DNA of 20,349 nt from a virus: positions 1 through 20,349 of IMG/VR virus record IMGVR_UViG_3300043015_000553; one strand, 5' to 3'. Below the pieces are notes generated by a model. That model had not been told where the DNA came from. It searched no databases and saw nothing but the letters and a program-made list of their open reading frames with translations. Positions within the stretch are counted from its first letter, which is position 1. Every line of letters begins with the position of its first letter. The translations under genes were made by a program, and so were the position numbers. This document shows, piece after piece, positions 2,254 to 18,383 of the stretch.

Positions 2254-3024
2254 ATGAGTAAAAAAGCAACAACTGAAATATCAGAAGCAAAAATACGGCA
2301 AGCTAAATGGTATTTAAAAGCAGGTAAAACTAAGAAATTTGTTTGCGAACATTTAGGTATTCCTTATAATACAAAACGTTTAACTAAATTGATAGAGGAT
2401 TTTGATAAATCCCTAGAGCGAGAAGCTGCGCTTAAAAAAGCTGCCAAAAACAAAATATTTACTAAAGCTGAGAAAGACGGCATAGCCAGAGCTTATCTTA
2501 ATGGGGAAACTCAGTCAGGGTTAGCTAAGCAATATTATGTGTCTGCTCAACGCATTAAAAATATCCTGCTTGAGACTGGCACCCCTATACGTGCTAGAGG
2601 TAAAAAACAAGCAGCTACAGTAGATCATATTGTACAAGATCTAGAAGTAAAATTTAATAAAGGAGATAAAGTATTTATTGCTAAAGAGAATTGCTTTGCT
2701 ATTGTAGACGAAGTATATGACGAAGACTTATTAGAATACCTAGAGTCTGGTCGACAAAAAGCAATAGAAACTTACCCTTTTAAACCCAATAAACAAGGGT
2801 TATCAGGAGTGCACGAAGAACCTAAAGAAGGTGTGCACTATGAAGTATATTGGATATTTGATGACGGAAAGCACGTAAAAATGAAAGCAATGTTGCAGTT
2901 GCGTAATCAAATAATGAAAGTACTTGAAGAAACAGGTAGAGAGTATTATAGGGTTTGGATAGATGAAGATTACAAATGCTTTAAATACGTTAAAAGGGAC
3001 GAACTCTACCCAGTAAAGGGATAA
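2254..3024 (+). CDS. HTH DNA-binding protein of the replication operon
   Basis: First gene after the tandem promoters, 256 residues. Two helix-turn-helix-like segments are visible: residues about 12-50 (KIRQAKWYLKAGKTKKFVCE then LGIPYNTKRL) and about 70-112 (FTKAEKDGIARAYLNGETQS, then VSAQRIKNIL). They resemble the resolvase/homeodomain class that recognises DNA through A-x-x-Y-x-x-G-x-[ST] spacing. A basic linker (RARGKK) follows, and then a distinct C-terminal half with KGDKVFIAKENCFAIVDEVY, which reads like a small beta-barrel, and aromatic, charged sequence to the end. GGGTTA precedes the ATG. Its place directly before helicase and primase suggests an origin-binding, helicase-loading or regulatory role; this is inference from position. 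No specific family name is recognised. Confidence 0.75.
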   Translation: MSKKATTEISEAKIRQAKWYLKAGKTKKFVCEHLGIPYNTKRLTKLIEDFDKSLEREAALKKAAKNKIFTKAEKDGIARAYLNGETQSGLAKQYYVSAQRIKNILLETGTPIRARGKKQAATVDHIVQDLEVKFNKGDKVFIAKENCFAIVDEVYDEDLLEYLESGRQKAIETYPFKPNKQGLSGVHEEPKEGVHYEVYWIFDDGKHVKMKAMLQLRNQIMKVLEETGREYYRVWIDEDYKCFKYVKRDELYPVKG

Positions 3025-9324: not shown

Positions 9325-9736
9325 TTGGGATGAACTTCTAGTACTAGGCAGAAAGGATCTTGCTGCAATATTATGCTTGGCATATGCTCAAACAAATGTG
9401 TATAATGAGTTATCAAGTAAGACAATGTTACGAACTTTAAATATACACCACATACCTAGACATATATTTAACAAAAACTGTTTCTACTTAGATAAACGAG
9501 TAGGGCTGGTATGTTATTACAAAACTAAAGAGCCTCAAAGCTATTTTAGGAATCCAGAGTTTTTATTCTACAATGTGCCTGCAAGAAAAAAGGTTGTATA
9601 CCTAAAAGCACTATCTATGCGCCGCATAAACGAGAATCAAAACTACATACCTAAGAAGTATTTTGAAAACGTAACAGAAAATCCATTTTTAACAATAACA
9701 GACGACAGGATTTATTTTCCTCTCGAATCCCTCTAA
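9305..9736 (+). CDS. unknown basic protein, GTG start
   Basis: A 143-residue protein overlapping the helicase end by 20 nt. The frame begins at GTG 9305; no clear Shine-Dalgarno precedes it, so expression probably depends on translation of the helicase gene, and no better in-frame start exists before the methionine around residue 41. The sequence is basic and tyrosine-rich (KTMLRTLNIHHIPRHIF, CYYKTKEPQSYF), with no recognised catalytic motif or membrane segment. Its place between the SF2 helicase and the ssDNA-binding protein corresponds to T5 D11 by position only. A nucleic-acid-binding accessory factor is plausible but unproven. Confidence 0.65.
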   Translation: MVTTYFNWDELLVLGRKDLAAILCLAYAQTNVYNELSSKTMLRTLNIHHIPRHIFNKNCFYLDKRVGLVCYYKTKEPQSYFRNPEFLFYNVPARKKVVYLKALSMRRINENQNYIPKKYFENVTENPFLTITDDRIYFPLESL

Positions 9737-9785
9737 CGAGGAACCACTATTAAGAACTTATGTTCAACAACCAAGGAGAAGAAAT

Positions 9786-10445
9786 ATGGTAGCTTGGGAT
9801 CAAGCAAAAGGTAAAAAAGCGTCAAATTCAGGTGAGCGTCGAGAAATCAAACGACTAAGCCTAAAAGCAGGCGATACAAAAGTAAGACTAGTAGGTGGCG
9901 TATTGCCCCGTTATACTTACTGGGTAGTTACTAAAGAAGGCCGTAAAATGCCTGTAGAATGTCTTCAGTTTGATAGAGAGACTGAAAGCTTTAATAATAA
10001 CGCAGAAGATCCTATGAAGGAAATTCCAGAAGATGTATATAACGATAAACCTGGTTTTGCGTATGTATGCCAAGTAATTGATAGAGCAGACGGAGAAATT
10101 AAACTATTTGACCTTCGCTCTACTATTTACGCACAGATTGTTGATCTAGCAGTAGACCCAGACTACGGCTCACCCGCTGACCCTGATAACGGGTATGATA
10201 TCACAATCAAAAAAGAAAAAACTGGACCTCTTCCACAAAACGTAAAATACTCTATTCTTCCTGCACGAGGAAACAGCCCTCTTACAGACGAAGAAAGAAG
10301 CCTAGAACTTTATGATTTAGAGAAAATTATAAAGCGTCAATCTTATGATGATCAGAAAAAATGGCTTCTAGAAAATACCAACTATTTTGCTGGTGAAGCT
10401 TCTGACGAGTTTAAGCCAGTAGAGGACGTAGACGATCTAGCATGA
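9786..10445 (+). CDS. single-stranded DNA-binding protein, gp32-like
   Basis: A 219-residue protein that I assign to the phage gp32-like ssDNA-binding group. The N-terminal part is basic (WDQAKGKKASNSGERREIKR), the middle gives an OB-fold-like strand pattern with YVCQVIDRADGEIKLFDL and the characteristic block YAQIVDLAVDPDYGSPADP followed by YDITIKKEKTG, and the C terminus is an acidic tail (EFKPVEDVDDLA) of the kind SSBs use to contact partners. The gene has a near-perfect Shine-Dalgarno, AAGGAG at 9773-9778, seven nt before ATG, and more GC-rich codons than its neighbours, consistent with high demand for an ssDNA coating protein. It lacks the zinc-binding cysteines of T4 gp32. The stop overlaps the next ATG (ATGA). 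Confidence 0.85.
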   Translation: MVAWDQAKGKKASNSGERREIKRLSLKAGDTKVRLVGGVLPRYTYWVVTKEGRKMPVECLQFDRETESFNNNAEDPMKEIPEDVYNDKPGFAYVCQVIDRADGEIKLFDLRSTIYAQIVDLAVDPDYGSPADPDNGYDITIKKEKTGPLPQNVKYSILPARGNSPLTDEERSLELYDLEKIIKRQSYDDQKKWLLENTNYFAGEASDEFKPVEDVDDLA

Positions 10446-11248
10446 AAAAATCATTAACAGATTTGGCTGTTAAGGGTGAAGCTCCAAAACAACAAAGTTT
10501 TGGGGCTTTTACCTCTTTAAACGGCGGGCAAGCCACAGTAGACCTAGAAAAACTTAGAAAACATAATGTCTTTTTTGCTACCCCTTGTTATGGTGGTATG
10601 CTAACAGACCAGTACTTTCTGAGTATGTTTCGTGCTACACAAACTCTTATGCGTCATGGCATTAATTTTAGAATTACAACTCTAAGAAATGAAAGCTTAA
10701 TATCTCGTGCTAGAAACATTCTCACAGCTATGTTTTTAGCTAGTGATTGTACTCATCTAATGTTTATTGACGCAGACATTGAGTTTCAGCCAGATGACAT
10801 TATCAGAGCATTAGCTTATGATAAGCCTATTTTAGCAGGTGCTTACCCTAAAAAAGCACTACCAGTGCAGTATGCTATTAACTTTAAATTTATGGATTCA
10901 GAAAGACGTAAGATTAGAGTAGAAAACGGGGCTGCAGAAGTACTAGATGCTTCTACAGGATTTTTCTTAGTAAAACGTGAAGTGATTGAAAAGATGATTG
11001 CAAATTATCCAGAACTTCATTATCGTAACGATTCTAATATATCTAAAGATCTAGAGAAGTATTGTTATAATCTATGGGATGTGCGTCTTGATCCTAAAGA
11101 TAATCGACTACTTAGTGAAGACTACAGCTTCTGTCGTCGTTGGCAAGAACTAGGCGGAGAGATTTGGTTAGATTTAAATACTAAACTTAACCATGTAGGG
11201 TCTTATACTTTTGAAGGCGATGTATCTAAGATTGTAGGCCAGAGTTAA
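10442..11248 (+). CDS. GT-A fold glycosyltransferase
   Basis: A 268-residue putative sugar-nucleotide-dependent glycosyltransferase. After about 38 divergent residues it has VFFATPCYGG, the SLISRARN segment, the metal-binding DAD at residues 110-112 (MFIDADIEF), DDIIRALAY and PILAGAYPKK, then the acceptor-side STGFFLVKREVIEKM and SEDYSFCRRW motifs typical of family 2-like and related phage enzymes. It is coupled by ATGA to the ssDNA-binding protein. Its position in the replication block suggests DNA or protein modification, but the substrate cannot be told: no hydroxymethylase or other base-modifying gene is in this window. The stop codon is part of the first unit of the downstream tandem repeat, so the C terminus may have been altered when the repeat arose. 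Confidence 0.82.
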   Translation: MKKSLTDLAVKGEAPKQQSFGAFTSLNGGQATVDLEKLRKHNVFFATPCYGGMLTDQYFLSMFRATQTLMRHGINFRITTLRNESLISRARNILTAMFLASDCTHLMFIDADIEFQPDDIIRALAYDKPILAGAYPKKALPVQYAINFKFMDSERRKIRVENGAAEVLDASTGFFLVKREVIEKMIANYPELHYRNDSNISKDLEKYCYNLWDVRLDPKDNRLLSEDYSFCRRWQELGGEIWLDLNTKLNHVGSYTFEGDVSKIVGQS

Positions 11249-11339
11249 CCCCGTGACTAAACTTCGTTTAGAAGCAGTTAACCCGTGACTAAACTTCGTT
11301 TAGAAGCAGTTAACCCGTGACTAAACTTCGTTTAGAATC
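11243..11339 (+). repeat. three tandem 32-nt repeats with a hairpin in each
   Basis: Units lie at 11243-11275 (one extra C), 11276-11307 and 11308-11339, each beginning AGTTAACC and containing GTGACTAAACTTCGTTTAG. The first two are otherwise identical, and the third differs only near its end. Each contains the 6-bp hairpin CTAAAC-TTC-GTTTAG (11257-11271, 11289-11303, 11321-11335). The first unit supplies the stop codon of the glycosyltransferase gene. Near-identity implies recent duplication or ongoing homogenisation. Confidence 0.93.
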
Positions 11340-11570
11340 AGCATAAAAACTAAGCTAGCAGCAGGCACAAAGTGGCCCACTAACAAAAAGCAACTCTGTT
11401 GCTAGCTTATAACGTAATAATAAGATAAACAACTTCGTTGTAGCGTGCACAACCTTTATGTAACTCTGTTACAACGTTTGCGCAAACTGTGCGAGGCTTG
11501 TTCAATATTATTCAATCGCTATATTAATGCTAACTTCGTTAATACTAGCACAGTTTAAAGCGAAAGGCAA
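11249..11570 (+). other. 322-nt non-coding region: array of small hairpins
   Basis: No credible protein gene or tRNA is seen. Besides the three tandem units, four more stems share the core AAC-(TTC or TCT)-GTT: AGCAAC-TCT-GTTGCT (11389-11403), ACAAC-TTC-GTTGT (11429-11441), TGTAAC-TCT-GTTACA (11459-11473) and TAAC-TTC-GTTA (11531-11541). The flanking stem bases differ but stay complementary, which is what selection for structure rather than sequence would leave. Also present are AGTG-GCC-CACT (11371-11381) and the palindrome GTTTGCGCAAAC (11476-11487). None has a U tract. Possible roles are a structured leader or non-coding RNA for the nuclease operon, an RNA-binding-protein platform, or a replication-origin element. 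A poor promoter-like pair (TTGTTC 11498, TATATT 11520) is not convincing. Confidence 0.8.
11351..11409 (+). repeat. 10-bp inverted repeat with a competing inner hairpin
   Basis: TAAGCTAGCA (11351-11360) and TGCTAGCTTA (11400-11409) are exact reverse complements 39 nt apart, enclosing the AGTG-GCC-CACT stem. The 3' arm shares bases 11400-11403 with the local hairpin AGCAAC-TCT-GTTGCT (11389-11403), so the two folds cannot both be complete. Confidence 0.75.
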
Positions 11571-11936
11571 ATGGAAAAAATTCAAGTTACAGAAGATGAT
11601 ATTCTAGTAAAAAGTGTTCTTAAAATGCCAGAAAACACTAATACTATAACTATATATTCAGAAGAAAAGGTGCTAGTATCTATATTACCTGACGGTACTC
11701 ACAAGTTTCATGACGAAAGCAAAATAGACGAAGCAGCTAGAATATTTTGGGCTAGTGTATCTACATATTTCACTCGTATGCAAGATGCTAACTACACGCT
11801 AGTTAGTATAGATGAGTTAGCAGACCTTAAGAAAGATTCTTTAGAACTGCAATGTTTACACGAGGGAGGTGTAGATAACTGGTTAGGATATAGTGAAAGT
11901 TTACAACGAGGAGGATACTTCGACAACTATGATTAA
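11571..11936 (+). CDS. small acidic protein of unknown function
   Basis: A 121-residue protein first in the nuclease operon, right after the hairpin array. GAAAGG at 11562-11567 gives a usable ribosome binding site four nt before ATG. The product is acidic, starting MEKIQVTEDDILVKSV, with a central FWASVSTYFTRMQD segment that reads as a helix, and ends in RGGYFDNYD. No motif, metal site or membrane segment is recognised. Its stop overlaps the start of the SbcD-like gene by eight nt, so the two are translationally linked, and it might act with or regulate the nuclease. That is inferred only from linkage. Confidence 0.75.
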   Translation: MEKIQVTEDDILVKSVLKMPENTNTITIYSEEKVLVSILPDGTHKFHDESKIDEAARIFWASVSTYFTRMQDANYTLVSIDELADLKKDSLELQCLHEGGVDNWLGYSESLQRGGYFDNYD

Positions 11937-12897
11937 AATATTAAGTAGTGCAGATTGGCACATTAATTTACACAAAAAGAAAATACCTTATGCTTGGGCA
12001 GAGCGTAGATTCTTACTGCTATTTGAACGTTTGCGAGATTTAGAGGGTCAGTGCGATGTTCATGTAATCTCTGGCGACTTATTTGATAGAAAACCAGAAA
12101 CTGATGATGTAGCGCTTATACTATCCTATCTAAATTCAGTTACAATTCCTACTATTGTGATACCAGGTAATCATGAAAGCACTCGCAAAGGTCATAGTTT
12201 TTGGGAACACTTTAAGTTAGAAAATACTGTAAAAAATGATTTAGTACATATTCTAACAGGCAATGATAGGGTAAACATCTTAGGTCAAAATTTTCAAGCA
12301 TTTCCTTATGGTAGCGTAGAAACAGACAATCTTCCTGAGTATATGGAGGGAGACATATTAACTACTCATATTCGCGGAGAAGTTCCCCCACATATTACTG
12401 CTGAGTATGACTTTGAAAAACTACGTCCTTGGAAACTTATACTGCTTGGCGATTTACATGAACGTCATCGCTATAAAGACTTTCCAGCTTATTATCCCGG
12501 TTCTCCACTAAATACAAGCTTTGATAGAAATGAAAAGCGTGCTTATGGTGTTGACATAATTGAACTGCGTTCAATAGATGATTATAGCGTTGAGTTTGTA
12601 GACTTAAAGCTACCTAAACTACTTCGTCGTACTATCTCAGCAGGCGAAGAAATGAAGCAAGATGAGTATCATCATGTAGTATATGAAGTCAAAGGTTCTA
12701 TTGATGAGTTAGCAAAAGTGCAAAAGTCAGAACTGTTAGACAAAAAGCTTGCTACTCGTGATGAAAGTGATGCTACTCTTGATTTAAAGAATAAAAACAT
12801 ATATGAGGAGCTTGAAATATATCTTAATCATATAAACATCGCTAATGTAGACGCTGTATTAAAAGTATTTAAAGACACTATAGGAAGTAGACTATGA
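11929..12897 (+). CDS. SbcD/Mre11-like nuclease subunit (T5 D12, T4 gp47 type)
   Basis: A 322-residue calcineurin-like metallophosphoesterase, the nuclease half of an Mre11-Rad50-type complex that trims DNA ends. All five metal motifs are present: SADWHIN (D9, H11), ISGDLFD (D50), IPGNHES (N81, H82), THIRGE (H147) and LGDLHERH (D175, H177). I chose ATG 11929 because the family starts with a strand directly before the first motif (MIKILSSADWHIN). An in-frame GTG at 11893 would add 12 residues; TAGGA lies just before that GTG, while GAGGAGG (11908-11914) sits 14 nt before the ATG, so the start is not fully settled. The stop overlaps the partner gene by ATGA, the usual sbcD-sbcC arrangement. Confidence 0.93.
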   Translation: MIKILSSADWHINLHKKKIPYAWAERRFLLLFERLRDLEGQCDVHVISGDLFDRKPETDDVALILSYLNSVTIPTIVIPGNHESTRKGHSFWEHFKLENTVKNDLVHILTGNDRVNILGQNFQAFPYGSVETDNLPEYMEGDILTTHIRGEVPPHITAEYDFEKLRPWKLILLGDLHERHRYKDFPAYYPGSPLNTSFDRNEKRAYGVDIIELRSIDDYSVEFVDLKLPKLLRRTISAGEEMKQDEYHHVVYEVKGSIDELAKVQKSELLDKKLATRDESDATLDLKNKNIYEELEIYLNHINIANVDAVLKVFKDTIGSRL

Positions 12898-14757: not shown

Positions 14758-16878
14758 ATGTTAACTATTGGGAAAAACCCTATTAAATTTCAACTAAAAC
14801 AAGCCTTTAAAGACGAGCTAAAAAGTCGTTCTGTTACCTGGGGATATGGAGGACTAAGTGCTTTTACCTATTACCGTACATATTCACGTAAAAAACCTAA
14901 TGGTAAGATGGAATCGTGGGCAGACACGGTAATTCGTGTTATAGAGGGTATGTTTTCTATCCTTAAAACACACTCGATAACGTCTGAACATACTTGGAAC
15001 GAAAAACGCGCGCATAGCCTAGCTGAAGAAGCTGCTGAAAGGCTATTTACTTTTAAATGGACACCTCCAGGTCGTGGCCTATGGATGATGGGCACTGATT
15101 TTGTATGGCAAAAAGGCGGCGCAGCACTTAACAACTGTGGATTCGTTTCGACAGAAAATATAGACGCAGAAATGTCTAAACCTTTTGCGTTTCTTATGGA
15201 TATGAGTATGGTAGGCGTAGGTGTCGGGTTTGATACTAAAGGCGCTGGTAAAATAGCCTCTTATATACCAGAAGGTGATCCAGAAGTAATAACTGTTGAA
15301 GATTCTCGTGAAGGTTGGGTAGAACTTATATCTTGTCTAATAGATTCTTATTTAGAAGAAGGATCTAATCCTGTACTACCTGATACATCTTTAGTAAGAG
15401 AATATGGAGAGCCTATAAGAGGTTTTGGTGGTGTAGCGTCTGGGCCAGAACCGCTAGTGCAAGGTTTCAACGGTATTAAAGATATACTTGAAAGCAGAGC
15501 TAAAGCCTCTAATCCTCTACTAACCTCTGTAGATATTACAGATATAATGAACATTATTGGTAAAATTGTTGTTGCCGGTAATGTAAGAAGAACAGCTGAA
15601 ATTGCTTTTGCAGAACCAGATGATCTAGATTTTGCTAATATGAAAAATTGGCAGAAGTTCCCAGTGGAAACAGGCGGTGCAGCTCCTCTAGAACTAAAAG
15701 AGATTAATGAAGACGATTATAATAGTTATAATAGATTTGAAAATACCGCTATTATAGCCCGTAAATACTCTGAGTACCCTTGGGCCTATAAGTTCGGAGG
15801 CTGGCGCTGGGCATCTAACAACTCTATACTTGCAAAAGTAGGTATGGATTATACTGAGGTAGCTGAGTCTATTGCAGTAAACGGTGAACCGGGTCTAGCT
15901 TGGCTTGATAATATGCAAGCGTTTAGCCGTATGAAAGACCCTGCAGACCATAAAGATTATAGAGTTCGTGGCGGTAATCCATGCCTAGAGCAGTCTTTAG
16001 AGCCTTATGAGCTTTGCTGCTTGGTAGAAAGCTTCCCGTCTAATCATGAAGATTATTGGGATTTTCAACGCACATTAAAGTTTGCTTATCTATACGCTAA
16101 GACAGTAACTCTTGTTCCTACTCACTGGAGAGAAACTAATGATGTTATTAAACGTAATAGACGTATTGGAACATCCCAAAGCGGTATTCAAGAAGCTATA
16201 CAGCGTTTTGGTCGTAAGCGTTACTTAGATGAGTTCTGTGATCGAGCATATAACTACGTAGACTATTTAGATCAAAAGTACTCAGAATGGCTTGGCGTTC
16301 CGTTATCTATTAAACGTACTAGTATAAAACCTAGCGGAACAGTATCTCTAGTTGCAGGCGCACTTCCAGGCATACACTATGCAGAAGCAGAGAGTTACTA
16401 TAGACTTGTAAGAGTAGCGAATACGTCAGAACTTATTCCTATTCTAGAAAAGGCAGGTTATAGAGTAGAACCAGCTATTACTGACCCTCTTAAAACCTCT
16501 GTAATATATTTCCCTATACTACACGAGCCAGGAACTATCAGTAAAACAAACATTTCTATATGGGAACAATTTGCTAATGCTGTTGACTTGCAAGAATACT
16601 GGGCAGATAACCAAGTATCTATCACTATCACTTTCAGTGAGCATGAAAAATCTCAAATTGCTCGTGCACTAAGCTGCTTTGATAGAAAACTAAAAGGAGT
16701 ATCTCTTCTTCCTATTAGTGATCATGGCTATGCTCAAGCGCCTTATACCCCAGCACCTCGTGAAGAAATAGAGCAGTATATGGCAACGCTTAGCCCTCTT
16801 GACTTCTCTGCACTAACTGCAGAAGGTGAGAATGCTGAGGCTAATAAGTTCTGCGATTCCTCAGGCTGTGAGATTTGA
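14758..16878 (+). CDS. nrdJ: class II (adenosylcobalamin-dependent) ribonucleoside-triphosphate reductase
   Basis: A 706-residue monomeric ribonucleotide reductase that would make dNTPs using coenzyme B12 as radical source. Diagnostic features are FKWTPPGRGLWMMGT, the first redox cysteine in LNNCGFVST (C127), the active-site NPCLE (C409 and E411), the second cysteine of the redox pair in YELCCLVE (C420), and a C-terminal C-x4-C (C699, C704), which matches the shuttle cysteine pair of Lactobacillus-type enzymes. Substrate and allosteric segments such as GNVRRTAEIAF and IKPSGTVSLVAGALPG are also present. AAGGAG at 14747-14752 is an excellent ribosome binding site. T5 itself carries class I nrdA/nrdB, so this is a different solution. 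The enzyme needs host cobalamin, and the glutaredoxin gene downstream could help reduce it. Confidence 0.95.
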   Translation: MLTIGKNPIKFQLKQAFKDELKSRSVTWGYGGLSAFTYYRTYSRKKPNGKMESWADTVIRVIEGMFSILKTHSITSEHTWNEKRAHSLAEEAAERLFTFKWTPPGRGLWMMGTDFVWQKGGAALNNCGFVSTENIDAEMSKPFAFLMDMSMVGVGVGFDTKGAGKIASYIPEGDPEVITVEDSREGWVELISCLIDSYLEEGSNPVLPDTSLVREYGEPIRGFGGVASGPEPLVQGFNGIKDILESRAKASNPLLTSVDITDIMNIIGKIVVAGNVRRTAEIAFAEPDDLDFANMKNWQKFPVETGGAAPLELKEINEDDYNSYNRFENTAIIARKYSEYPWAYKFGGWRWASNNSILAKVGMDYTEVAESIAVNGEPGLAWLDNMQAFSRMKDPADHKDYRVRGGNPCLEQSLEPYELCCLVESFPSNHEDYWDFQRTLKFAYLYAKTVTLVPTHWRETNDVIKRNRRIGTSQSGIQEAIQRFGRKRYLDEFCDRAYNYVDYLDQKYSEWLGVPLSIKRTSIKPSGTVSLVAGALPGIHYAEAESYYRLVRVANTSELIPILEKAGYRVEPAITDPLKTSVIYFPILHEPGTISKTNISIWEQFANAVDLQEYWADNQVSITITFSEHEKSQIARALSCFDRKLKGVSLLPISDHGYAQAPYTPAPREEIEQYMATLSPLDFSALTAEGENAEANKFCDSSGCEI

Positions 16879-17033: not shown

Positions 17034-17439
17034 AAAACTAAGAGATGATGCTATTCTACCTAGCAGAGGTAGTATTGAAGCTGCCGGTGCTGATATAAGT
17101 TCTATAGAAACTATAAAAATACCGCCTCGTGAATTTCGTATGGTTAGTACTGGTATTTCGGCTCAGGCTCCGGAAAATTGCTATATTAGGATCGCTCCAA
17201 GATCTGGTTTAGCCGCTAAAAAAGGTATTGACGTATTTGCTGGTGTAGTAGATAGAGACTATACAGGAGAGATAAAAGTCATCTTAATGAATAACTCTAG
17301 TCAGATAGTAGATATTAATGCAGGTGACAGAATAGCACAACTTATTTGTGAAACTATCAAAATTACAGACATAGTTGAAGTTGATAGCCTAGAAGATACT
17401 GAACGAAGTTCAGCAGGGTTTGGGTCTACAGGCGTATGA
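17023..17439 (+). CDS. dut: dUTPase (deoxyuridine 5'-triphosphate nucleotidohydrolase)
   Basis: A 138-residue trimeric dUTPase that hydrolyses dUTP to dUMP, protecting phage DNA from uracil and supplying dUMP for dTTP synthesis. All five family motifs are present: AAGADISS (1), APRSGLAAKKG (2), GVVDRDYTGEI (3, catalytic Asp), GDRIAQLI (4) and the glycine-rich arm RSSAGFGSTG (5). Length is typical. The start ATG lies within the last codons of the DUF1289 gene and has GAGAAAA as a weak ribosome binding site; the stop overlaps the glutaredoxin start (ATGA). T5 also has a dUTPase in its early region. In the last 45 nt a small dyad (17399-17413) resembles, on the minus strand, the hairpins of the 11.3-11.5 kb array. 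Confidence 0.95.
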   Translation: MKVKKLRDDAILPSRGSIEAAGADISSIETIKIPPREFRMVSTGISAQAPENCYIRIAPRSGLAAKKGIDVFAGVVDRDYTGEIKVILMNNSSQIVDINAGDRIAQLICETIKITDIVEVDSLEDTERSSAGFGSTGV

Positions 17440-17675: not shown

Positions 17676-18383
17676 ATGGCTTCTAAAAAGAATAAAAATA
17701 ACAATACAGGCTTAAAGGCAGTAAGGATTGATGATCTAGATACTGTATCTCCTAAAACAACTAACCAAGAAAAAACATTTAGAGAGTTTCGTAACGGTAA
17801 AGAACTACTGTTACACGGAGTAGCTGGAACAGGTAAAAGTTTTATTAGTCTGTATCTAGCACTTGAACAAGTATTAGACCCATCAAATGATTATAATGAT
17901 ATATTTATAATTCGTTCTACTGTACCAACTAGGGATATGGGTTTTCTTCCAGGTACCGAAGAAGAAAAAGTATCTATCTATGAAGCTCCCTACAGGCAGA
18001 TATGTGGGGAGCTTTTTTCTGTTCGTAATGCATATGATTCTCTAAAATCACAAGGCACTATAAAGTTTACTAGCACTTCCTATGTAAGAGGTATTACAAT
18101 AAATAACTCTATAGTAATAGTTGACGAATTACAAAACTTGACATTCCACGAACTAGATTCTGTGTTTACTCGTGTAGGGCACAATACTCGTATAATATTC
18201 TGCGGTGATTATTTACAATCTGATCTGCAAAAAACTAACGATAAGAACGGAGTTCTTCAGTTTATGAAAGTTTTTAAGAGTATGCAGGAAACAGCAGATA
18301 TAGAGTTTGATACTGACGATATAGTTAGGAGTGATATAATACGTTCTTATATACTAGCTAAACTAGAATTAGGAATAACGTAA
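17676..18383 (+). CDS. PhoH-like P-loop ATPase
   Basis: A 235-residue protein of the PhoH/PhoL family. Walker A GVAGTGKS is at residues 48-55 (K54), Walker B and the family hallmark VDELQNLTFHELDSVFTR at about 149-166, and FCGDYLQSDL gives sensor motif III. The first 30 residues are a basic Asn/Lys-rich tail. PhoH genes are frequent in tailed phages, including T5 relatives; a nucleic-acid-linked ATPase or helicase role is proposed for the family, but the phage function is not settled. GAAAGG at 17664-17669 is the ribosome binding site. The stop shares one base with the next start (TAATG). Confidence 0.93.
   Translation: MASKKNKNNNTGLKAVRIDDLDTVSPKTTNQEKTFREFRNGKELLLHGVAGTGKSFISLYLALEQVLDPSNDYNDIFIIRSTVPTRDMGFLPGTEEEKVSIYEAPYRQICGELFSVRNAYDSLKSQGTIKFTSTSYVRGITINNSIVIVDELQNLTFHELDSVFTRVGHNTRIIFCGDYLQSDLQKTNDKNGVLQFMKVFKSMQETADIEFDTDDIVRSDIIRSYILAKLELGIT

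Follow-up and report, generated by a model that had tools for sequence, protein, structure and literature searches.

What role is played by a gene-free stretch of viral DNA that is crowded with miniature hairpins? We analyzed a 20.3-kb virus record over its whole length of 20,349 nt (the window), and our window searches cover that record alone. ORFs at 10442-11248 and 11571-11936 flank a gap of 322 nt (11249-11570, assigned to neither strand), in which the ORF list places no gene. The original prediction described here seven stems with an AAC-NNN-GTT core, and we found all seven between 11257 and 11541, five with the loop TTC and two with TCT; six of the stems are perfect and 5-6 bp long, and the remaining one is TAAC/GTTA. 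Read on the minus strand, mini-hairpins 1-3 are CTAAAC-GAA-GTTTAG, one in each of three tandem copies of a 32-bp repeat (11250-11345), followed in coordinate order by mini-hairpins 4 (AGCAAC-AGA-GTTGCT, 11389-11403), 5 (ACAAC-GAA-GTTGT, 11429-11441), 6 (TGTAAC-AGA-GTTACA, 11459-11473) and 7 (TAAC-GAA-GTTA, 11531-11541), the last lying where transcription would be expected to start.

The seven mini-hairpins are real and far beyond chance: AACNNNGTT is present seven times where dinucleotide shuffles give 0.24 (at most 3; n=5000), and AACTTCGTT occurs six times in the 20-kb record (0.16 expected), with five of the six inside 11249-11570. Because mini-hairpins 1-3 are copies of a single tandem repeat, the independent stems in the window number five, not seven. 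With two tandem copies left out, five occurrences of AACNNNGTT remain, a count reached by 0 of 5000 shuffles, as do four hairpins of at least 5 bp, equalled in 5 of 5000. In L007, a phage that is nearly identical, the 32-bp repeat is present twice instead of three times, and one of the loops has changed from TCT to TGT (mini-hairpin 6) with every stem kept. The covariation claimed within this one sequence was overstated, three of the copies being identical; support for selected stems comes from compensatory change among relatives. We rejected CRISPR-like or type III toxin-antitoxin repeats, as the relatives lack the 32-bp repeats and the adjoining ORF is gp5.9-like.

The genes around the array follow the order of the T5 D-region, with a D5-like regulator (phrog_323), DnaB helicase, SSB, SbcD/SbcC and flap nuclease, and PolA most resembles that of T5-like phages. 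The SSB (phrog_1607; 9786-10445, + strand) shares about 30% identity with cultured phages and has no close cultured relative. The gene at 10442-11248 is glycosyltransferase-like (phrog_1574; weak Anp1 match). It adjoins SSB throughout the group, which is odd for a replication cluster, and its protein has relatives in cyanophage ACG-2014f and in rhizobial phages. Directly after the array comes an ORF ending in a T7 gp5.9-type RecBCD-inhibitor domain (PF25708; 11571-11936, + strand), and then the gene for an SbcD/D12-like nuclease subunit (11932-12897, + strand), syntenic with D12 in T5-like phages; both this gene and SSB served as queries for relatives. The slot that separates the hairpin element from SbcD is a gene-insertion hot spot that holds differing ORFs in close relatives (L011, L018, L025, L026, L027, L033 and L177); in relatives such as L018 and L033, the ORF that begins immediately behind the element has an FLHEG stretch similar to that of the gp5.9-type ORF.

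Searches of the non-coding stretch against cultured phages gave no match, and no relative was found in bacterial genomes; a bacterial prophage, L155, was dropped as a carrier when its sequence was read and the hit proved a chance word match. Among 80 relatives collected via SSB, 61 carry two adjacent triloop hairpins at the syntenic position. Of the other 19, two (L047 and L079) are truncated where their contigs stop, and two more (L042 and L067) carry variants of the element. By sequence comparison, the window array is part of a control element that is conserved among uncultured marine T5-like phages, where it is non-coding and present in single copy. This element spans about 150-200 nt and usually sits with the SSB/glycosyltransferase-like pair on one side and SbcD (D12) on the other. 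Its aligned order is H1 (GGCAAC-TCC-GTTGCC or GGAAC-TAC-GTTCC, among others), H2 (GTCTC-TCC-GAGAC or GGCAC-TAC-GTGCC, among others), TTCA words, H3 (CACC-TGC-GGTG, CAAC-TAC-GTTG), TAGCAYA, GCAA and a start codon. In the window it also encloses the palindrome GTTTGCGCAAAC (11476-11487, no strand assigned), of which we saw none in relatives.

We built a model (R1, length 1-129) on the relatives' conserved element and searched with cmsearch. It matched the window over its full length (1-129) at 11426-11552 on the + strand with 25 bits and an E-value of 0.005, a modest score, yet the sole match in the window and syntenic with the 61 relatives. R1 also recovered further held-out members. Of 13 long records, 10 gave one clear copy, and no contig gave a second clear one; in T5 and Vibrio phage D239 it did not find the element. 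One contig, L089, has two tandem element-like copies at 9700-9990 (AGACAC-TAC-GTGTCT and AGACAC-TAC-GTGCCT), the second with an A-C mismatch that is the only broken stem of that kind noticed.

The element stays constant while the gene that follows varies between SbcD itself and unrelated ORFs. Large relatives, with records of 173, 107 and 69 kb, have it at another place, where the small genes next to it are unrelated and run in the reverse orientation relative to it, yet its internal order and polarity are unchanged. Such relocation with unchanged polarity indicates a mobile and autonomous element.

We next asked what is conserved in the stems. In alignment A2, 99.8% of stem cells are paired, 43 cells are double-changed against 13.9 in shuffles, and shifting the partner by one column lowers pairing to about 30%. 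Watson-Crick pairs fill 1058 of 1060 stem cells, and neither G-U nor A-C occurs in any of the 1060. When changes were mapped on a tree of SSB proteins (106 rows, 54 distinct), we counted about 15 independent Watson-Crick swaps, an upper bound on events since adjacent pairs possibly changed together, and one change that breaks a pair. This compensatory change shows that the stems are selected as structure, as originally proposed. When the downstream motif was the only search criterion, it led to 66 distinct elements, and every one of them had both hairpins. A different account, in which small inverted repeats expanded neutrally or by chance through tandem duplication, fits the three copies, which form a recent tandem repeat of varying number, but not an element that dozens of contigs conserve and whose changes are compensatory; it is refuted for the core element, has hardly any probability overall, and may apply to the tandem copies, three in number.

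The loops obey a rule of their own: on the SSB tree, position 2 changed 19 times and positions 1 (T) and 3 (C) not once. A T-N-C loop on the + strand corresponds to C-GNA-G on the minus strand, and the window clade departs from it in part, its TCT loops reading AGA on the minus strand. The free-energy tables that we used do not discriminate between the hairpins of the two strands. In C-GNA-G DNA loops, a sheared G:A pair stabilizes the promoter hairpins of phage N4, which extrude at physiological supercoiling; the template-strand hairpin survives SSB and the opposite-strand hairpin is melted (PMC4496689). Two C-GNA-G hairpins in coding sequence on the + strand, at 17399-17413 (CTGAAC-GAA-GTTCAG) and 18243-18257 (AAGAAC-GGA-GTTCTT), are probably due to chance. 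A CsrA-sequestering RNA, with GGA loops, was discarded, the window loops being GAA and AGA.

A putative leftward promoter adjoins the hairpins. All 64 main-clade elements carry a sigma-70-type pattern on the minus strand, with TTG at -35, 17 nt, TRTG and TAnnnT, and an A/T tract upstream, and the pattern is kept even where the + strand gene there differs. In the window, the -35 box TTGCCT lies at 11565-11570 (minus strand; TTG in 64/64 related elements), and a 17-nt spacer separates it from an extended -10 at 11542-11552 (minus strand) composed of TGTG (11549-11552) and TAGTAT (11542-11547). This putative promoter has by sequence the -35, the -10, the 17-nt spacing and the extended -10 of the sigma-70 class, and the pattern occurs at two sites in 20 kb on both strands, versus 0.15 expected. 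We also found it in L206, L208 and L137; L091 and L148 deviate from it, either by their spacing or by the final base. Transcription is predicted to run leftward from 11542-11570 through a set of iterons to the hairpins. Judged by promoter and GNA loops, the functional strand appears to be minus.

The iterons TGCGAGGCTTG, TTCAATATTA and TTCAATCGC (11490-11519, no strand assigned) are spaced by 11 and 10. Across the stretch from hairpins to promoter in 14 representatives, which are related and do not amount to 14 independent tests, the self-repeat score at lag 11, the best of all lags, is 95, whereas 200 shuffles give 71.8 +/- 3.6 and reach 82 at most; smaller peaks lie at lags 10 and 20-22. Clear 11-bp repeats are present in L042 and L266 despite otherwise different sequence. 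Such 11-bp phasing of TTCA repeats is as expected from a protein that binds one face of duplex DNA. The promoter and iterons had been missed in the original prediction, and together with the hairpins they form a conserved unit.

Does this unit act as RNA or as DNA? The main rival to the reading that we favor below is a minus-strand gene for a small non-coding RNA of about 150-200 nt, whose GNA-triloop hairpins and UGAACA linkers would bind or sequester a protein or pair with target RNAs. The conserved sigma-70-type promoter, the compensatory stems, the lack of a minus-strand gene after the promoter in most clades and terminator-like structures in the window and some relatives all speak for it. 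The statement that no U tracts follow the hairpins was right for the + strand; on the minus strand, two structures and no others are so followed, a small hairpin and a larger stem, and the argument against terminators does not hold there. Mini-hairpin 4 leads into TTTTTG, and a larger terminator-like stem (11345-11409, minus strand; arms 11396-11409 and 11351-11364, 14 nt and 93% complementary), which shares sequence with mini-hairpin 4, leads into GTTTTTATG. A plain array of intrinsic terminators is ruled out by relatives that lack U tracts after their hairpins, and a consistent terminator was not found in the main clades, although some relatives or clades have terminator-like structures.

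Of the two features expected of a structured RNA, compensation is present and G-U pairs are absent, none occurring among 1060 stem cells. The global RNA fold of the window is somewhat better than that of shuffles (z -2.7), whereas the whole-RNA folds of L011 (-1.6) and L135 (0.35) are not significant; we counted the former against a DNA origin and the latter for a DNA element. Among 4227 Rfam models none matched the element, with only chance-level matches elsewhere, and no tRNA was found. The helix-phased repeats likewise count against a small RNA, which we regard as unlikely though a serious contender. G-U absence and phasing also weigh against giving first rank to a binding platform for an RNA-binding protein, one of the roles suggested earlier. 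The original prediction had listed RNA or single-stranded DNA structure side by side, and of the two we favor DNA: the hairpins probably act as DNA rather than RNA.

Two readings tie the element to neighboring genes. In one, it serves the SbcD operon as a structured leader or intercistronic RNA on the + strand, a reading that takes in antitermination of the nut/boxA kind. Most relatives do have it directly before + strand genes, and L123 has a boxA-like CGCTCTTTAACA, but that word is not general, the promoter is on the opposite strand, and in the large relatives the element is relocated and reversed against its neighbors. With promoter and GNA loops pointing to the minus strand, the leader suggested earlier is very improbable. 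In the other, the element controls transcription in cis, as an early promoter with a downstream operator and no replication role: the phased iterons would receive the D5-like regulator, and extruded DNA hairpins would tune the promoter or the passage of polymerase. The pairing of promoter with phased repeats suits this, as do the encoded regulator gene (phrog_323) and the L203/L266 clade, where the element stands directly before a gene. Most of the phages, however, have no following same-strand gene to regulate, and the element remains intact while adjacent genes change, so we consider this reading improbable.

The hairpins most resemble the early promoters of N4, with a stem of 5-7 bp, a C-GNA-G triloop, strand specificity and a link to SSB. 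Virion RNA polymerase promoters of that type, made of DNA hairpins, would match in hairpin type and be on the strand that suits the rightward genes. In N4, the loop centre (-11) must be a purine and position -8 must be G (PMC4496689). In the element, GTA and GCA loops are common, T or C often stands at the loop centre, -8 is mostly A/T, and A-T, T-A or another combination forms the second pair. The element further differs in that its hairpins are grouped and accompanied by iterons and a separate sigma-70 promoter. In a 117-kb relative, the four largest ORFs are two tail fibres, a tape measure and one without a match, with no recognizable RNA polymerase; a search with PF00940 (RNA_pol) gave no match, its control being silent too, in records that may be incomplete. 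The N4-type reading is largely refuted already, and we give it next to no weight.

T5 and other Demerecviridae have a replication module of identical gene order: D5, helicase, primase, PolA, D10, SSB, D12, D13 and D15. The searched cultured phages of this group have a UL9-like origin-binding protein and lack the element, whereas contigs bearing the element show the reverse: the protein is present in T5, D239 and VCPH and absent from 11 contigs of the element group, a complementarity that covers three cultured phages only and contigs that are possibly incomplete. In the cultured T5-like phages its gene lies in AY543070 (59596-62310), AP014889 (57993-61121) and OZ196063 (47310-50459). We counted this distribution in favor of an origin, and the absence of the protein from the 11 contigs led us to reject an origin of the UL9 type. 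The T5 injection stop signal was also set aside, the element being mid-genome and beside D12.

Iteron origins are known from lambda ori and iteron plasmids, and hairpin single-strand initiation sites from the phage G4 origin and plasmid ssi. The element resembles them in its hairpins, in direct repeats that are phased and in the promoter next to it; its sequence is unrelated, its mini-hairpins are much shorter, and no initiator gene lies beside it. In transcription-primed origins such as T4 oriF and ColE1, a host-type promoter reads into the site, as is predicted for the element, and our phage encodes a PolA-type polymerase and a flap nuclease. Iterons phased with the helix, a feature of replication origins, are present. 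The element would work like N4 hairpins, iteron origins and transcription-primed origins and answers to the testable definition of none of them.

Phased iterons, strand-specific hairpins and a promoter that fires through them, in a single copy independent of neighboring genes and set beside SSB, are best fitted by a site of replication initiation. An origin near the SSB gene was among the roles first suggested and is now the leading reading: tentatively, we propose a DNA element that is activated by transcription, has C-GNA-G hairpins able to extrude, and is most likely an origin of DNA replication, a preference that falls short of confidence. Read from right to left on the minus strand, this self-contained control element would comprise the sigma-70 extended -10 promoter, TTGTTCAACAGC-like iterons phased at 11 bp, and at least two C-GNA-G mini-hairpins. 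A phage initiator protein would bind the iterons on one helix face, the leading candidates for the iteron-binding protein being the D5-like protein (1033-1725) and a 256-aa protein (2254-3024), and host RNA polymerase would fire leftward, so that transcription and negative supercoiling open the DNA and extrude the mini-hairpins. By analogy with N4 promoters, SSB would melt the C-TNC-G hairpins (+) and spare the C-GNA-G hairpins (-). The helicase, primase and PolA-type polymerase of the phage would thereby be offered a defined single-stranded entry site or an RNA primer.

Several observations count against an origin. GC skew, which follows gene direction and is uninformative on the origin, does not switch where the element lies; several clades have terminator-like sequences that would suit a short and stable RNA as well; and in one clade the promoter also serves a downstream gene. 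A literature search returned no description of such an element, and we know of no sequence-level definition of a T5-like phage origin in the little T5-origin literature that we covered. To our knowledge, N4 is the main example of a phage with a double-stranded genome in which DNA hairpins serve as functional signals. Extruded C-GNA-G mini-hairpins, phased iterons and a firing promoter may constitute a new class of origin or nucleic-acid switch, a bolder proposal that we hold as somewhat doubtful. If true, an N4-type DNA hairpin device would serve a purpose other than a virion RNA polymerase promoter in a large uncultured marine T5-like lineage. At less than 200 bp, polar, and with paired stems and phased repeats, the element is a directly testable candidate for a replication start, and bears on where and how abundant marine T5-like phages begin DNA synthesis; if it is not an origin, it would be a new phage small RNA. 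Elsewhere in the window, the ribonucleotide reductase gene (14758-16878) is closest to that of Actinomycetia phage DSL-LC01 (43%), not to those of T5-like phages, a possible sign that the host is unusual or that the gene was transferred.
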